Below are positions 16,638-25,316 of a stretch of DNA of 38,806 nt, piece after piece. A model generated the notes under the pieces. It saw nothing but the letters and a program-made list of their open reading frames with translations. It made no database searches and was not told the DNA's origin. Both the position numbers and the translations under genes were made by a program. Source of the DNA: Candidatus Pullibacteroides excrementavium (GTDB lineage: Bacteria; Bacteroidota; Bacteroidia; Bacteroidales; P3); contig JADIMZ010000062.1 in assembly GCA_017694335.1 (NCBI GenBank), positions 1 to 38,806 of the forward strand, read 5' to 3'. Each line of letters starts with the position of its first letter. Position 1 is the stretch's first letter.

Positions 16638-17513
16638 TTAGAATTGATAGGAGATGGCAAGCTGGAGGGGTTTATGGATAAGCATCTTGTTCTTTTTGTC
16701 TCCTTCGTAGGCCATGTTTTTCAAGCCCCAATCTCCTCCTATTCTGAATTGCAGCCCTTTGTATCGGAACCCGATACCCACACCATAAAGAACGTTAAGT
16801 CTTCGGATATCCCAATTTTTATAATAATTGATGTCCGTTTTTTGTCCGGAATGCACATTCTTTACTTCAGCGGTTAGGCCCATTCCAATATCGAAGCTGG
16901 GGCCAGTATAAGCAAAAAGGCTGAAATCCTCAAAAAGTTCATACCGGTATTGCAGGCGGAGAGGAATGGACAAGGAGTGGTCTTTGACAGATATTTCGTA
17001 ATCTTCGGATTTTGTGTTCTCCATCATCAAATCGTAATAGATTCCTGTTTGGATACCGATGCCATACGCGATTTCGGGTGCTAAGAATAACCCGATGCTC
17101 AATCCATTGCTGAGTTTTTTAGGCGAACGGGAGAATTTGGAAGCTTCATCTTCTGAAAAATTATTGATTTCAGAAAGGAGAACCATGTTGGTGAGTCCGA
17201 TTCGTTTCCTGCCATCTATTTCTTCACCAGTGGCAACATCTCCGGGCACATTGAAGATGTAGCAAATTTGTTTTGTGGTATATCCGAAGGAAGCCCCAAT
17301 CCATCGGTTCTCGCCTTGCGGTCCTGCATAGAAATCGAATTCGTTGAGGTTGGTAGCTTGGCTGTTTGCTACTATCGGCTTTTGGGAAATGGTGTATTTG
17401 AAAGCGTTGGGGTGCTGTTGCGTTTCCTCATTGTTGTTATTGGTTGTACTTCCTTTTGCAAAAGCTGCAGTAGAAAGCAGAAAACTTGATATGATTAGAA
17501 TGGATGTTTTCAT
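16638..17513 (-). CDS. Outer-membrane beta-barrel protein (PorT-like), paralog 1
   Basis: Signal peptide, 'GLTNMVLLSE', 'APEIAYGIGIQTGIYYDLMMENTK', 'IPLRLQYRYELFEDFSLFAYTGPSFDIGMGL', C-terminal '...LAISYQF'. Confidence 0.82.
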   Translation of the reverse strand: MKTSILIISSFLLSTAAFAKGSTTNNNNEETQQHPNAFKYTISQKPIVANSQATNLNEFDFYAGPQGENRWIGASFGYTTKQICYIFNVPGDVATGEEIDGRKRIGLTNMVLLSEINNFSEDEASKFSRSPKKLSNGLSIGLFLAPEIAYGIGIQTGIYYDLMMENTKSEDYEISVKDHSLSIPLRLQYRYELFEDFSLFAYTGPSFDIGMGLTAEVKNVHSGQKTDINYYKNWDIRRLNVLYGVGIGFRYKGLQFRIGGDWGLKNMAYEGDKKNKMLIHKPLQLAISYQF

Positions 17514-17543
17514 TTCTTTAGGATTAGGTATTTGTTGTATTAA

Positions 17544-18391
17544 TTAAAATTGATAGGACAAGTTTATTGTGAAAGGCTTGTTGATGAAAAGTTTATAGGT
17601 GAAGTTGTTGTCTGTTTCTTTGACCATGTTGAGCAATCCCCAGTCGCCACCGGCTCTGAGTTGCAGGCCTTTCCACCTTATTCCGCCACCTACGCCGCAG
17701 AGAAGGTTGAATCTTTTCAAATTATTGTCATACAGGTTGTTGGCTTCGGTCGATGTTTTTTCATCGTTGAGAAATTCAGATACGTTAAAGGCAAGGCCTA
17801 TGTCAAAGCTTGGACCGGCATAAATGAAGAGGCTGAAATCCTTGGCTAATTCAATTCTGTATTGGATTCGTAGCGGAATAGAGAGAGAATGGTCGGTGGA
17901 ACTATACCTTGTATCTACGCCATCTGATTCCTCTTTGGCTTTTTCCATAGTGACATCGTAATAGATTCCTGTCTGGATGGCGATTCCATATTTGAATTCG
18001 GGCATCCACGTGAGGCCGATGGAAAAAGTATGGCTGTATTTCTTAGAAGATAGGCCGGTCAGGCTTGTTTTAGTGGTGGGAAGACTTTTATCAGAAGGTC
18101 TGATGCGGAATTGTTTCTGTCCGTATCCGACAGCTATGCCGAAGGGTCTTTTTTTGTTTTGTGGGTCGATGCTGAAGCGGAAAGGTGTTACAGGATTTTC
18201 ATCATAGGCATTACTTATGCTCTCTCTCTCTCTCCAATGGAAAAACCTGCATGAGACTCTTCGCTGACTTGCGCATACTCGGTGTTACCGAAATTGGAAT
18301 TCGTTCGGGCAGACGACATTGGGTTGCCTTGTGCCCACGCCATCGATAGGAAGGCAACCCCTCCCATGAAAGCAATGATTGATTTTTTCAT
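17544..18391 (-). CDS. Outer-membrane beta-barrel protein, paralog 2; currently out of frame at a (GA)7 tract (candidate phase-variable, OFF)
   Basis: ATG at 18391 gives signal peptide MKKSIIAFMGGVAFLSMAWAQGNPMSSART..., terminating at TAA 18217-18215 just after (GA)7. The barrel continues in another frame (...KKYSHTFSIGLTWMPEFKYGIAIQTGIYYDVTMEK...LSYQF) to 17544. Removing one GA unit joins both parts with no stop. Confidence 0.8.
18221..18234. repeat. (TC)7/(GA)7 dinucleotide microsatellite within coding sequence
   Basis: 'atgc tctctctctctctc caatgg'; 7 units inside the beta-barrel paralog 2 reading frame. Confidence 0.95.
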
Positions 18392-18641
18392 TTTGTACTT
18401 GTATTTGGGTTAATAATAGTATCCTCTTTTAACTATTGTCGTTTTTGAGGTTTTGTTTGGGATTCCTCAGCCTTGGTAGGGGCAAAGATACAATTTTTTT
18501 TATTTGCGCAGTTTTTAAGCTTTGTTTGTCACTCGGGGACTGTTCGAATGGTTTATCTCGGCTTCCGCAAAGGTAGCGATAAGATTGTTCCATTATAATG
18601 AATTTGGTAGAGGCTTGGCTCTATTTTATGGGGCGATAAGC

Positions 18642-18692
18642 GACAAGCGGGAACTGTGGCATGAGGACCTCATGCCACAGTTCCCGCTTGTC
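18642..18692. repeat. 51-nt perfect palindrome (25-bp arms, 1-nt centre)
   Basis: GACAAGCGGGAACTGTGGCATGAGG-a-CCTCATGCCACAGTTCCCGCTTGTC, located 19 nt past the end of beta-barrel paralog 3. Confidence 0.97.
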
Positions 18693-18710
18693 AGTTTTGG
18701 GGGGATACTG

Positions 18711-19685
18711 TTAGAACTGGTAAGATAAAGTGATATGGAAAGGCTTATGTAAATAATATCTGTCATTGGAATCGTAGCCTTTCATTATATCGATGAGTCC
18801 CCAGTCGCCACCAGCCCTCAATTGCAGCCCTTTATAGCGTAATCCGCCGCCTACGCCCCACATCACATTGAATCTTTGAAGGTTGGAAAGTTCGTAGATA
18901 TTGTATTTTTCAACCTCCGGTTCAATTAAGGAACCTGGGTAAGGGATTTCTTCTTCACGGATATTGAATGCGAGGCCGAAATCGAAGCTGGGGCCGGTAT
19001 AGAGGAACAAGCTGAAATCTTTGGCTACTTCGATGCGGTATTGGAACCGCAGCGGAATAGCCAATGCATGTTCGTTGGCAAAGTATGTATATACTTCTCC
19101 ATCTTTGGCTTTTTCCATGGTCAATTCATAATAAAGGCCGGTTTGCAAGCCAAAGCCGTAACCGAATTCCGGCGCCCATGTAAGGCCAATGAAGACGGTA
19201 TTGCTGTATTTTTTTTCAGGGATGTCTGGTAAAAAAAATGTCCTGAGCATAGCGTTTGTTAAGCCTGCCTTTTCTTTTTCTTCTCTCACAGTGCCATCAT
19301 CCTCAATAATTTTATACTTGCGGAGAAGGCTTTTCTGCGTGTACCCGATAGCTATTCCCACAGGCCTTTGTTTGGATTTGGGACTCGGAAGGTTTACTTT
19401 CTTCTTGGGGGCAGGTGGATTGGAAGCAGTGATTTCAGCAGGAGAAGGTTGCGCATTGAAAGCGGCAACTTCTCCATTGGAATAAATGATAGAAGAGATT
19501 TCGTTTGTTTTTAGTGAAAAAGTCGGACCATCCTGGAAATCGAATTTCTTATATTTGATTTCCTCTTGGCTGACTTCGATGATTTTGGCATCGATTCGTT
19601 TTGAGTCTTTGCAGACGATGATGTCCTGCGCCCAAGATAGCGTGGCTATCATGAGTCCCGATAGGATAGCAATTAGTTTTTTCAT
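18711..19685 (-). CDS. Outer-membrane beta-barrel protein, paralog 3
   Basis: Signal peptide; 'IIVCKDSKRIDAKIIEVSQEEIKYKKFDFQDGPTFSLKTNEISSIIYSNGEV' N-terminal module common in Bacteroidota; barrel with 'GLTWAPEFGYGFGLQTGLYYELTMEKAK' and 'HITLSYQF' C-terminus. Confidence 0.85.
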   Translation of the reverse strand: MKKLIAILSGLMIATLSWAQDIIVCKDSKRIDAKIIEVSQEEIKYKKFDFQDGPTFSLKTNEISSIIYSNGEVAAFNAQPSPAEITASNPPAPKKKVNLPSPKSKQRPVGIAIGYTQKSLLRKYKIIEDDGTVREEKEKAGLTNAMLRTFFLPDIPEKKYSNTVFIGLTWAPEFGYGFGLQTGLYYELTMEKAKDGEVYTYFANEHALAIPLRFQYRIEVAKDFSLFLYTGPSFDFGLAFNIREEEIPYPGSLIEPEVEKYNIYELSNLQRFNVMWGVGGGLRYKGLQLRAGGDWGLIDIMKGYDSNDRYYLHKPFHITLSYQF

Positions 19686-20301: not shown

Positions 20302-20375
20302 GGTTCCGTAGCTCAGCTGGATAGAGCAACAGCCTTCTAAGCTGTGGGTCGAGCGTTCGAATCGCTCCGGAATCA
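20302..20375 (+). tRNA. tRNA-Arg (TCT)
   Basis: Acceptor GGTTCCG/CGGAATC, T-arm GTTCGAATC, anticodon loop CTTCTAA (TCT). Upstream TTTG-20 nt-TACCTTTG promoter-like sequence. Confidence 0.95.
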
Positions 20376-20380
20376 CAAGC

Positions 20381-20495
20381 GAATAAGCTGGTTTTCAAAG
20401 CCTCGGATTCCTCCGGGGCTTTTTTGGTTTGGTTCTTGAATGCGTTTTTGCCTACTTTTGCACACAAAATGTTTTGTCAAAGAATGCAGACAGAT
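20381..20495 (+). repeat. tRNA-downstream duplicated segment, copy 1
   Basis: 'ataagctggttttcaaagcctcggattcctccggggctttttt-ggtttggttcttgaatgcgtttttgcctacttttgcacacaaaatgtt' is near-identical to 25197-25290. Confidence 0.9.
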
Positions 20496-20693: not shown

Positions 20694-21584
20694 ATGAAAA
20701 GGCTTGTCTGTTTTCTGTGTTTAGTATTAGCCATGGCGATGCCTCTCTGCGCACAGCAACGTCATGCCGTGGTCATTGGCATTGGGGATTATCCGGAAAA
20801 TTCGGGATGGAAGAAGATACACGGCGATGCTGATATAGAGATAGTGTGTGCCATGCTCTCGGAAAATGGCTTCGAACCGCAGGATATCAAGGTGTTGAAA
20901 AACCGGGACGCAGACAAGGCTGCCATTGCCAAGGTTTTTGCGGATCTGGCTGCCGATGTCCAGAGTGGGGATTGGGTCTATGTCCATTTTTCCGGTCATG
21001 GGCAGCAGGTAAGCGATTTGGACGGGGACGAGGCTGATGGCTGGGACGAAGCCATTATTCCATACGATGCGTGCAGGGAATACAAGGCCGGGGTGTATGA
21101 GGGCGAAAACCATATAATCGATGATGAATTGAACCAGTGGTTGATGCCGATTGCGGACAAGATAGGGCAAGAGGGCTGTCTTTTAGTAGTGCTGGATGCC
21201 TGCCATAGCGGGGATGGCACAAGGGCGGAAGATGAGGAAGAGGATACGGTTCGGGAAACCGATATTCGAGGGACTGCGGACAAGTTCGAGTATGCGGGCT
21301 TTGATCCGGATTTGGCATCGCCCAAGACTCCGAGAAAGACAAACTGGATAGCATTGAGTGCCTGCAAGCCATATCAAAGCAATTACGAGTATTGGGATGG
21401 AAGCCGGTATGTGGGGCGCTTGACTTATGCCTTGGCGCAGCATTTTAGGATAGGTGTTCCGGTGTGCGATTTATTGAATGATATAGAGATAACCTATGAT
21501 ACATTGCCGCTCCGGCGGAATACCGTGCAAAATCTGAATGCCGATATTCCGGAACGGATGCGCGATAAATTGATTTTTAAATGA
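20694..21584 (+). CDS. Secreted caspase-family (metacaspase, peptidase C14) protein
   Basis: Signal peptide MKRLVCFLCLVLAMAMPLCAQ; p20 core 'RHAVVIGIGDYP', catalytic His 'VYVHFSGHGQQ', catalytic Cys 'VVLDACHSGDGTRA'. Confidence 0.92.
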   Translation: MKRLVCFLCLVLAMAMPLCAQQRHAVVIGIGDYPENSGWKKIHGDADIEIVCAMLSENGFEPQDIKVLKNRDADKAAIAKVFADLAADVQSGDWVYVHFSGHGQQVSDLDGDEADGWDEAIIPYDACREYKAGVYEGENHIIDDELNQWLMPIADKIGQEGCLLVVLDACHSGDGTRAEDEEEDTVRETDIRGTADKFEYAGFDPDLASPKTPRKTNWIALSACKPYQSNYEYWDGSRYVGRLTYALAQHFRIGVPVCDLLNDIEITYDTLPLRRNTVQNLNADIPERMRDKLIFK

Positions 21585-22150
21585 CAGACCAGGACTACAT
21601 CAGAGCGCTACTGCAGAATGATAACGATGTGATGGGGGAAATGTACGAGAAATACAGGGAATCGTTCGCCAAGTGGATACAGGGGTACGTGTTTAAAGGC
21701 AGTTTGCTGGAGGACGAGATTGCCGATATTTATATGGAGGCATTCGAGGCTGTATGGACAAACGTGAAGAAGGGAAGGCTGAACACGGGTAACCTCAGAT
21801 CTTCATTGAAAACGTATTTGTTTTCTGTTGGCTATAATAAGGCAAGGAATCTGTTGCGGTCGAAGCGTATTGGAATCCGAGAAATTTCGATGGACCTCAC
21901 TGAATTGGCAATGGAAATTAGCGATGCAGTACCAAAAGAAGATATTGAACGCGAACGGATTGTCCAAGAGACCGTGAATGAAATGAAAGAACCGTGCAAT
22001 CAGCTGTTGAACCTTGTTTATTATCAAAAGAAGACAGGCGATGAGATAGCTTGCATCATGGGGTATAAGAATTCGGAATCGGTGAAAGCGCAAAAGTATA
22101 AGTGCATGTTGAAAATCAAGGATATTTTAAAAAGAAAGTTGCACTATTAA
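21581..22150 (+). CDS. ECF-type RNA polymerase sigma factor
   Basis: Sigma-70 region 2-like 'YRESFAKWIQGY...IADIYMEAFEAVWTNVKKGRLNT' and region 4-like 'LLNLVYYQKKTGDEIACIMGYKNSESVKAQKYKCMLKIKDIL'. ATG overlaps the metacaspase stop (ATGA). Confidence 0.85.
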   Translation: MTDQDYIRALLQNDNDVMGEMYEKYRESFAKWIQGYVFKGSLLEDEIADIYMEAFEAVWTNVKKGRLNTGNLRSSLKTYLFSVGYNKARNLLRSKRIGIREISMDLTELAMEISDAVPKEDIERERIVQETVNEMKEPCNQLLNLVYYQKKTGDEIACIMGYKNSESVKAQKYKCMLKIKDILKRKLHY

Positions 22151-22160
22151 ACGATATGAA

Positions 22161-22793
22161 ATGAATACGGAAGAAAGAATAGACAGGTATGTTTCGGGCT
22201 TGATGGAGGGGGACGAAAGGCAGTTGTTTGAAACGGAGATGTCTCAAGATAAAAATCTGGAAGAAGAAGTTCGCTTGCAGCAGGAAGTCGTTTTGGCGAT
22301 TCAGAAGAAAGGCTTGCGGCAAATGATGCAGGACAAGGAAAAGGAAATCAGAACGCGTGCGGCGCGAAGGTGGATTTATCTGCCATCGGCTTTGCTGGCT
22401 GCCTGTCTGGTAATCGGTATCTTTTTTAGAATCGGCCATGTCCGGGATTGCAAGGAACTTGGCGAGAGCATTGTGTTGGAGGCGGTTCAGATGAGAGGGG
22501 AATCGGATTCGGACGAGATTCTGGATGCCATCAATGCTGGAAAGTATGAAGACGCTTTGTGCCAGATTGAGGCTTTGAGGAGGCAGATTCCGGAATTCGA
22601 TTTGAATTCGGAAGAGGGGCAATACGATAAGATGCAGTTCGACAATCAGATGGAGGACTTGGATTGGTTCGAGGCGGTGGCTTATATGCGGATGGGAAAG
22701 GTGAGGAAGGCCCGGCAATGCCTTTCGGCGATAGCCTCCAATCCGGATGGCGCGTATGCTTCTCAGGCGGCGGAAGCGCTCAAGGCACTGTAG
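22161..22793 (+). CDS. Membrane anti-sigma-like protein with periplasmic TPR-like C-terminus
   Basis: N-term 'EERIDRYVSGLMEGDERQLFETEMSQDKNLEEEVRLQQEVVLAI' (typical N-terminal segment of Bacteroidota anti-sigma-like proteins), one TM 'WIYLPSALLAACLVIGIFF', C-term helical repeats; 10 nt downstream of the sigma gene. Confidence 0.7.
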   Translation: MNTEERIDRYVSGLMEGDERQLFETEMSQDKNLEEEVRLQQEVVLAIQKKGLRQMMQDKEKEIRTRAARRWIYLPSALLAACLVIGIFFRIGHVRDCKELGESIVLEAVQMRGESDSDEILDAINAGKYEDALCQIEALRRQIPEFDLNSEEGQYDKMQFDNQMEDLDWFEAVAYMRMGKVRKARQCLSAIASNPDGAYASQAAEALKAL

Positions 22794-22848
22794 CAATCAT
22801 AGGGTCAATCAAGGTTACTTTTTTACGTTGGAGGGTATAAAGAAGTGA

Positions 22849-23103
22849 ATGCCGAGGAAAAGTTCCGAGGCTGAAAACTTAAAAAAACGTAAAAAGATGA
22901 CTTGGTTGATTGTTATTGGCGTAGTGGCTCTGATAGGGGCTATTATCGGATTTTTTGCCTCGAAGAAGGGGGAAAGAGGAGAAGGTGCTGCGACGGGGGC
23001 GGCTGCAGGTGCCGTGGGATGCGGTATTATCCTGGCGCAGATTTTCATGTGGGGAATCGGTATTATGTTGCTGATTCTGCTGTTTTCTTGGTTGTTTGGT
23101 TGA
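22849..23103 (+). CDS. Small Gly/Ala-rich membrane protein (two TM; glycine-zipper-like)
   Basis: 'MTWLIVIGVVALIGAIIGFFASKKGERGEGAATGAAAGAVGCGIILAQIFMWGIGIMLLILLFSWLFG'; the start could be the internal ATG at 22897. Confidence 0.6.
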   Translation: MPRKSSEAENLKKRKKMTWLIVIGVVALIGAIIGFFASKKGERGEGAATGAAAGAVGCGIILAQIFMWGIGIMLLILLFSWLFG

Positions 23104-23729: not shown

Positions 23730-25019
23730 ATGGAAGATTTCAAGGCTACGGAATACAGCTTGCGGACAGTGGCCACAGGCCGGGTTTTTGAAGATGCCGG
23801 TTGGGCCATCGATGACGAACTTTCGGAAAAGCCCTCTTTGATCAGGGCCGAATACAAGAAAAAACAGATTGATGTCAAACCGGAAAGCTGTGGAATCTAC
23901 CGCTTTGCCGACTGGTTGCCCATCAAGCGGACATTGGCCGGTTCCTGCGCGCCAATCACTTACAAGAGCGAAGGTTTGGCCAAGGCTCTTGGGATGACCA
24001 ATCTTTATATCACTTTCAACGGTTATTTCCCGAAAATCGGGGCGAGGATGAGCACCTGCTCGTTCAAAGAGACCGAAGCCTATTCGGTTTGCGCCCGTTT
24101 GGCAGCGGATTGCGGCAAGGTCTTGGTCGTGGCTTCGGCCGGCAATACGGCGAGGGCTTTCGCCAAGGTCTGCTCCGACAACCATATACCGTTGCTGCTG
24201 AGCGTGCCTGCCGACAATTTGGACGCGCTTTGGTTCGAAGCTCCTTTGAATGATTGCGTCAAGCTGATTGCCGTTCAGAAAGGCGGCGACTATTTCGATG
24301 CGATTAATCTGAGCAATATGGTGCTGGCTTCTGACAAGTTTTTGGCCGAAGGCGGTGCCAAGAACATTGCCCGCCGCGACGGTATGGGGACAACGGTTCT
24401 TTCGGCCACGACTCATATCGGCCGGATTCCGGATTTCTATTTCCAGGCAGTCGGCAGCGGCACAGGGGCTATCGCGGCTTGGGAAGCCAATCTCCGTCTG
24501 ATTGAGGACGGGCGTTTCGGTTCGCACAAGATGAAGCTGATGGTGTCGCAGAACGCGCCCTTCCTGCCGATGTACAAGGCATGGAAGGCCGATTCGAGGG
24601 CTTTGCTGCCTTACGATGCCGATCAGGCACGTTCGGATGCGGAATCGATCAATGCCAAGGTCTTGTCGAACCGCAAGCCGCCATACAGTCTGGCGGGCGG
24701 CCTGTACGATGCGCTCAAGGACACGCAAGGGGATATGTTCGCGGTGACCAATTCCGAAGCCGAGGAAGCGCAGCGTCTGTTCTTGGAAACCGAAGGCGTG
24801 GACATCTATTCGGCATCGGGCGTGGCGACCTATTCTCTGATGCAGGCGGTTCGGGACGGTCAGGTGCAGAAGGACGATGTAGTGATGCTCAATATCACGG
24901 GCGGCGGCGAGAAGCACTTCAAGCAGGAGCGCCAGGTTTGGAATCTGGAGCCTTCGTTGGTGTTCCCGATTGATGCCGACCCCAAAGCGGTACTGGAAGA
25001 CGTGGCGAATTTGTTCTGA
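23730..25019 (+). CDS. Cysteate synthase-like (threonine synthase-like PLP enzyme)
   Basis: PLP fold-type II protein with 'GLAKALGMTNLYITFNGYFPKIGARMSTCSFKETEAYSV', 'VVASAGNTARAFAKVC', 'QAVGSGTGAIAAWEANLRL', 'NITGGGEKHF'; resembles methanogen cysteate synthase (TIGR03844-type) more than ThrC as recalled. Confidence 0.8.
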   Translation: MEDFKATEYSLRTVATGRVFEDAGWAIDDELSEKPSLIRAEYKKKQIDVKPESCGIYRFADWLPIKRTLAGSCAPITYKSEGLAKALGMTNLYITFNGYFPKIGARMSTCSFKETEAYSVCARLAADCGKVLVVASAGNTARAFAKVCSDNHIPLLLSVPADNLDALWFEAPLNDCVKLIAVQKGGDYFDAINLSNMVLASDKFLAEGGAKNIARRDGMGTTVLSATTHIGRIPDFYFQAVGSGTGAIAAWEANLRLIEDGRFGSHKMKLMVSQNAPFLPMYKAWKADSRALLPYDADQARSDAESINAKVLSNRKPPYSLAGGLYDALKDTQGDMFAVTNSEAEEAQRLFLETEGVDIYSASGVATYSLMQAVRDGQVQKDDVVMLNITGGGEKHFKQERQVWNLEPSLVFPIDADPKAVLEDVANLF

Positions 25020-25118: not shown

Positions 25119-25192
<74 letters not shown>

Positions 25193-25196
25193 CAAC

Positions 25197-25316
25197 GAAA
25201 TAACTTGGTTTTCAAAGCCTCGGATTCCTCCGGGGCTTTTTGTTTTGGTTCTTGAATGCGTTTTTGCCTGCATTTGCATACAAAATGTTCCACCAATGTT
25301 CCTCCAAAGAATACAG
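25197..25316 (+). repeat. tRNA-downstream duplicated segment, copy 2
   Basis: 'aaataacttggttttcaaagcctcggattcctccggggctttttgttttggttcttgaatgcgtttttgcctgcatttgcatacaaaatgtt' near-identical to copy 1. Confidence 0.9.

Follow-up and report, generated by a model that had tools for sequence, protein, structure and literature searches.

A predicted Bacteroidales operon joins an exported caspase-like protease to an ECF sigma factor and a membrane partner whose sigma-facing part is exchanged together with it

The functions of exported prokaryotic caspases are largely unknown, and a locus in which such a protease is encoded directly before an ECF sigma factor and a membrane protein with a single transmembrane (TM) segment raises the question of whether the protease controls the sigma factor, is one of its outputs, or is simply its neighbour. 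If the caspase were the site-1 protease, exported prokaryotic caspases would acquire a defined substrate, and the sigma regulon would serve as a readout. The locus lies in a stretch of 38,806 nucleotides, here called the window, and its features are listed in Table 1. The four ORFs proposed by a sequence-only reading were all recovered at their coordinates, together with the ATGA overlap between the caspase stop and the sigma start and the TM-protein ORF (22161-22793) that begins 10 nt past the sigma stop. According to a hydrophobicity scan, the single TM segment of the latter would separate a cytoplasmic N-domain from an extracytoplasmic domain.

Table 1. Coordinates of the caspase-sigma-anti-sigma locus and adjoining features in the window.
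Feature	Position	Strand	Basis
Caspase-like protease (C14), exported, 296 aa with ATG 20694 as start	20694..21584	+	Pfam PF00656
ECF sigma factor, 189 aa	21581..22150	+	NCBIfam TIGR02937
Anti-sigma cytoplasmic N-domain, residues 1-73, predicted sigma-binding	22161..22379	+	Co-exchange with sigma; motif common to relatives
Anti-sigma transmembrane helix, about residues 72-88	22374..22424	+	Hydrophobicity scan
Anti-sigma TM plus extracytoplasmic domain, TPR-like end	22380..22793	+	Sister-species identity; TPR_16 sub-threshold
Juxtamembrane Arg112-Gly113, candidate site-1 position (inferred)	22494..22499	+	Shared throughout the anti-sigma family
Exchanged cassette: sigma from codon 5 plus anti-sigma codons 1-73	21595..22379	+	No blastn match in G001/G002
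Glycine-zipper-like membrane protein, small, dispensable neighbour	22849..23103	+	Pfam matches sub-threshold; deleted in G001
tRNA-Arg (tct), immediately 5' of the operon	20302..20376	+	ARAGORN
Terminator-like tRNA stem, then TACTTTTG (20453-20460), candidate operon promoter	20397..20460	+	Pattern match only

The description of the first gene as a caspase-fold protease with a signal peptide holds, since the protein contains FSGHGQQ and LDACHSG, begins with a hydrophobic export signal ending in LCAQQ, and matches Pfam Peptidase_C14 (E=4e-19, 69.6 bits, gathering cut-off 21.4) as well as the structure of metacaspase-1 (E=1e-12). The catalytic residues His102 and Cys170 are invariant in 20 aligned relatives, as are the acidic residues D47 and D168, which presumably belong to the metacaspase S1 pocket and would be compatible with Arg or Lys at P1. 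An Arg-Gly located after the catalytic Cys was considered as a matching autoprocessing site and discarded as non-specific, since it is also found in long caspases without a sigma factor. Plasmid searches returned only distant relatives of the caspase, with at most about 35% identity. The source genome contains three C14 proteins, and at another locus (L022, G000:C69, 5012-9926) it encodes a second short caspase that bears an export signal; behind it lie genes for a membrane protein and for a CHAT protein whose N-terminus includes a hydrophobic stretch, and no sigma gene accompanies them. The sigma factor scores 59.8 bits against the NCBIfam sigma70-ECF model TIGR02937 (cut-off 42.9), and its matches to Pfam r2 and r4_2 are sub-threshold. 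Taken alone, the TM protein gives sub-threshold matches to the anti-sigma model NF052375 (E=0.0023, 17.9 bits, cut-off 100) and to TPR_16 (E=0.0026), two labels that comparison across genomes supports, and its N-domain shares the motif EERI..Y..G.M..E...FE with relatives.

Related loci were gathered by similarity to the caspase and not to the sigma factor, starting from the window caspase, and nine of them belong to two related genera, so that the following counts represent no unbiased frequency. Caspases were divided into short, lone-domain proteins of about 280-360 aa and long ones of about 500-690 aa. The sigma gene starts near the stop of a short caspase in 20 loci, at -11 to +53 nt (a larger overlap in L056 is due to an upstream start picked by the ORF caller), and a sigma/anti-sigma pair ends just 5' of the caspase in three further loci (L118, L119 and L120). 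Co-occurrence of the caspase with this kind of ECF sigma factor, the lack of which had been named beforehand as a refutation of the proposed association, was thus found in about 12 lineages of Bacteroidales. At every locus with a downstream sigma gene, the third gene encodes a protein of 188-267 aa with one TM segment, and a large TPR-CHAT protease (Pfam CHAT, E=1e-43 to 1e-57) usually adjoins the set; these TPR-CHAT proteases carry export signals in the relatives and are absent from the operon of the window and of two sister genomes, G001 and G002. Sixteen further short caspases lack a sigma gene beside them, two could be assigned to neither class because of truncation or a contig end, and none of the 20 long caspases, several of them cut by contig ends, adjoins one. 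Given the same order in many Bacteroidales and only five ECF genes above cut-off in the 2.62 Mb of the source genome, the association exceeds chance, and the trio of caspase, sigma factor and TM protein is, as judged from gene layout, a conserved Bacteroidales operon.

The immediate surroundings are less constant. The small membrane protein, an intact 84-aa ORF that resembles a glycine zipper at a sub-threshold score, had been proposed as a further member of the module and possibly its effector; it is retained in G002, has been lost from G001 through a deletion of ~212 bp that leaves the rest of the locus intact, and was seen in no other lineage, so that its membership of the module is not supported, and the effector role was rejected on account of the G001 deletion. 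The tRNA-Arg occupies the equivalent place in G001 and G002 but not in other lineages, and a tRNA-adjacent integration site was rejected as a general rule, since among the sigma-linked loci scanned a tRNA lies beside the operon only in this genus group. The candidate promoter box TACTTTTG fits TAnnTTTG, which we take to be the consensus of the Bacteroidales -7 box, and the window holds 19 such matches against 9 expected by chance. An element of ~100 bp follows both tRNA-Arg (20375-20473) and tRNA-Pro (25192-25289) in copies 90-91% alike. It combines a terminator-like stem with a conserved tail, which in the first copy includes a TAnnTTTG-like box; similar copies lie at the corresponding places in G002, and the element may represent either a repeat linked to tRNAs or a unit of promoter and terminator. 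Elsewhere in the window, three tandem paralogous outer-membrane beta-barrel ORFs (OMP_b-brl_2) were noted on the minus strand at 16638-19685, one of them apparently without a complete start, and a cysteate synthase (23730-25019; TIGR03844, 484.8 bits, cut-off 324.9) adjoins a TIGR04076 protein, a pair possibly involved in sulfonolipid synthesis.

What ties the sigma factor to the TM protein emerges from G001 and G002, two congeneric metagenome-assembled genomes named 'uncultured Bacteroidales', which carry the same locus with the same flanking genes. Between the window and these sisters, the caspase and the outer half of the TM protein are 91-100% alike: the caspase is identical to that of G001 in amino acids (99.9% in nucleotides), the TM segment plus ectodomain is 94.9% identical in amino acids to that of G001 and 91.2% to that of G002, and the DNA from 23028 onward is 99.6% identical to G001. 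However, a block of 785 bp, with its right end at about 22355-22379, has no blastn match in either sister; within it, the sigma factor is 48.9% and the cytoplasmic anti-sigma domain 49.3% identical in amino acids to their counterparts in G001, and the same codon is used at only 44-48% of shared residues, which is near saturation, whereas G001 and G002 are 90-93% alike in amino acids throughout. Since the junctions fall at sigma codon 5 and at the first TM residues, the exchanged block comprises the sigma factor and exactly those 73 cytoplasmic residues of the TM protein that would face it. Sigma factor and cytoplasmic domain are partners that must fit, and they have been swapped jointly; therefore, the TM protein is very probably the cognate anti-sigma of the adjacent sigma factor, and the anti-sigma-like identity previously proposed for it, for which its own model matches are sub-threshold, is supported by this co-exchange. 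The exchange amounts to a natural domain-swap experiment, which pairs anti-sigma with sigma with no biochemistry required and places the domain border within a few codons. A coevolution test by distance correlation was uninformative, all gene pairs giving 0.90-0.96. A natural in-frame read-through between sigma and anti-sigma was observed in one relative (L015).

The ectodomain has diverged to a similar degree in each of the three genomes, with 16, 12 and 19 private sites, and the caspase of the window is nearly identical to that of G001 (one private site in the window against 37 in G002), which indicates that the tract was most likely acquired by recombination from a lineage already carrying this sigma factor and N-domain joined to a near-identical ectodomain. 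A silent cassette or phase variation was rejected as the source of the swap, since no second copy of either sigma allele was found in the source genome (84% complete), G001 or G002. It is also conceivable that the difference arose during metagenome assembly, by joining the sigma region of a divergent strain into the window contig, given that all of these genomes are metagenome bins (165 contigs in the source genome; the sisters are titled MAGs) and that the flanks are nearly identical to G001. This would be an improbable outcome, as both junctions are in frame and preserve the ATGA overlap and an intact fused protein; moreover, the ectodomain past the right junction is ~5% off G001 and has private sites of its own, so that merely joining two parental sequences at k-mers common to both does not account for the tract. 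Doubt could likewise be cast on the tie to the caspase, which, together with the sigma pair, might represent unrelated neighbours in a purely positional association, as the short and the long caspases without a sigma neighbour could suggest; nevertheless, recurrence in about 12 lineages, with genes that overlap or nearly touch and in three gene orders, makes this explanation very hard to sustain.

The outer and inner parts of the system also come apart in other genomes. In two loci of one genome (L125 and L153), a short protein made of a TM segment, the Arg-Gly and the ectodomain, without the sigma-binding domain, precedes a TPR-CHAT protease and the caspase, and L124 gives the same arrangement by the same search match; no sigma gene is near any of these loci, which come from genomes G1086 and G1027. 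Such an operon may represent a receptor that has lost its transcriptional output, and it indicates that the outer domain is tied to the proteases independently, and the inner domain to the sigma factor. The anti-sigma of L119 and L120 has an ectodomain of only ~40 aa. Variation of a different kind is seen in a genus of the same family, in which the caspase-sigma-anti-sigma DNA is 89-94% alike in the closer pairs (L050, L051, L053 and L054, and more divergently L052, L055 and L056) and the next 3.4-4 kb, up to a conserved helicase-like gene, have no blastn match. Across L050-L058, the region about 2.2-6 kb past the caspase start is a hypervariable slot, with the helicase-like gene beyond it in most loci. 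The slot contains differing TPR-CHAT proteins, alike at their starts or ends in some pairs, accompanied by AbiH (Pfam E=4e-46), a DUF3800 protein that matches PADLOC PDC-S51 (E=7e-83), or unknown small proteins, a content that hints at a role in biological conflict; it was not seen in the lineage of the window.

Metacaspases and orthocaspases cleave after Arg or Lys (PMC8283722), a preference that fits a conserved Arg close to the membrane. In 20 aligned anti-sigmas, an invariant Arg lies about 15-33 aa past the TM segment and is nearly always followed by Gly (R112 and G113 in the window), a pattern that stood out in 17 linked loci and was seen again in loci retrieved afterwards. However, when compared with homologous anti-sigmas that have no caspase in a locus of ~3.5 kb, a control that addresses adjacency and not genome-wide absence, R[GSA] is present at the juxtamembrane place in 23 of 24 caspase-less homologues, as against 22 of 24 from linked loci (shuffling gave a mean of 4.7 for either set), and K[GSA] in four unlinked and no linked sequences. 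Strict RG is more frequent in the linked set (21/24 against 12/24, p=0.011), but p rises to 0.17 when the linked loci are collapsed to lineages. Thus, since it is equally common in anti-sigmas without an adjacent caspase, the Arg-small motif is a property of the whole anti-sigma family that neither proves nor excludes the caspase, and Arg-Gly was demoted as a caspase-specific cleavage signature. The motif could be where a general Arg-specific protease cuts, or where any protease that happens to be present does so, or it could have a structural role. Sigma/TPR-type anti-sigma pairs sharing Arg-Gly/Ser/Ala, with or without an adjacent caspase, were seen widely in Bacteroidales (L132, L133 and L136-L157).

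The gene order and its conservation, the export signal, the single TM segment, the block exchange and the sigma-less ectodomain-protease operons are all read from sequence, whereas binding, cleavage, signal and regulon are inferred. The reading that we favour tentatively is a sigma/anti-sigma switch that spans the membrane and has a protease of its own on the outer face. In the cytoplasm, the N-domain of the anti-sigma would hold the ECF sigma factor, while its Arg-Gly linker and TPR-like domain would lie outside the membrane, where the exported caspase, in many relatives together with an exported TPR-CHAT protease, would act on the outer domain. A signal would activate the caspase, which would cut the juxtamembrane linker or trigger its cutting, and subsequent intramembrane proteolysis would free the sigma factor to turn on its regulon, probably including the caspase operon. 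Cleavage of the anti-sigma by the caspase is putative and plausible, and the topology suits it, because the caspase is exported and the ectodomain extracytoplasmic, both being predicted on the same side of the membrane. Nevertheless, the sixteen short caspases without an adjacent sigma gene speak against a protease-side role, and the anti-sigmas that keep the Arg-small motif with no caspase next to them indicate that the family can work without a local one. It is quite possible, then, that sigma factor and anti-sigma form an ordinary autonomous envelope-stress switch, widespread as a family in Bacteroidales and served by a general site-1 protease, and that the caspase and TPR-CHAT protease are co-regulated outputs (periplasmic executioners or processing enzymes) and not activators. 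Many homologous pairs do stand alone with the same juxtamembrane motif, and the operon begins with the caspase gene, a position that a regulated output might well occupy. However, the caspase and the ectodomain remain together where the sigma factor and N-domain have been exchanged or are absent, which fits a functional tie between them outside the membrane better than simple co-regulation by one particular sigma factor, and it is for this reason that we prefer the protease-side switch.

A broader generalisation is possible, though less likely than not, namely that Bacteroidales possess caspase-gated sigma switches in which the caspase, and the TPR-CHAT protease, would be the site-1 protease and recombination would swap the cassette of sigma factor and sigma-binding domain to reach a new regulon, with one genus also swapping its TPR-CHAT/Abi cargo. 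If this were true, a constant sensor would connect the same input to a different regulon. The exchange could in any case be a way for a bacterium to keep its sensor and alter its response. A literature search, with most subscription papers outside its range, turned up neither an account of this operon nor one of a sigma factor being exchanged together with an anti-sigma domain; caspase-sigma operons have been known since 2012, and it is for the cassette exchange that we found no prior report.

Among known systems, RseA/DegS/RpoE keeps its ECF sigma factor bound to an anti-sigma that crosses the membrane once and has a domain outside the cytoplasm. The window operon shares this layout by prediction, and a juxtamembrane site-1 cut is the trigger proposed for it; however, DegS is a PDZ-trypsin-like protease, whereas the candidate here belongs to clan CD, being a caspase that the operon itself encodes (the regulated intramembrane proteolysis of RseA/DegS/RpoE is also described in PMC10028731). 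The caspase conflict systems EACC1 and EACC2 (Kaur et al. 2021, PMC8195603) offer a likeness in EACC2 neighbourhoods, where a caspase is linked to an ECF sigma factor and a TPR protein; unlike EACC1-associated caspases, the window caspase is a lone exported domain, and it stays well below the cut-off of the EACC1-associated model NF047832 (32.4 bits, cut-off 140). Operons with metacaspase and sigma-70 genes were predicted in 2012 in Myxococcus xanthus, other Deltaproteobacteria, Ralstonia and Fibrobacter (PMC3501461); they resemble the present one in joining caspase and sigma-70 genes in one predicted operon conserved between genera, and differ in that the operon section of that source mentions no anti-sigma, TPR-CHAT protease or domain exchange, nor Bacteroidales as hosts of the sigma operons. 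In the type III-E system Csx29-Csx30-CASP-sigma, cleavage of the anti-sigma by a TPR-CHAT protease is established (PMC10028731), and there, too, a caspase-fold protease, a sigma inhibitor and an ECF sigma factor are encoded together. That module is RNA-guided and works with Cas7-11, whereas in the window operon the protease is exported, the anti-sigma spans the membrane and no CRISPR gene was identified; PADLOC models gave no match to ten other window ORFs at E<=0.001. We do not file the operon under a CRISPR module, the likeness being one of logic, and as logic the parallel drawn by the sequence-only reading is sound and even closer than it claimed, given that the relatives encode TPR-CHAT proteases, the class of Csx29, which are exported here.
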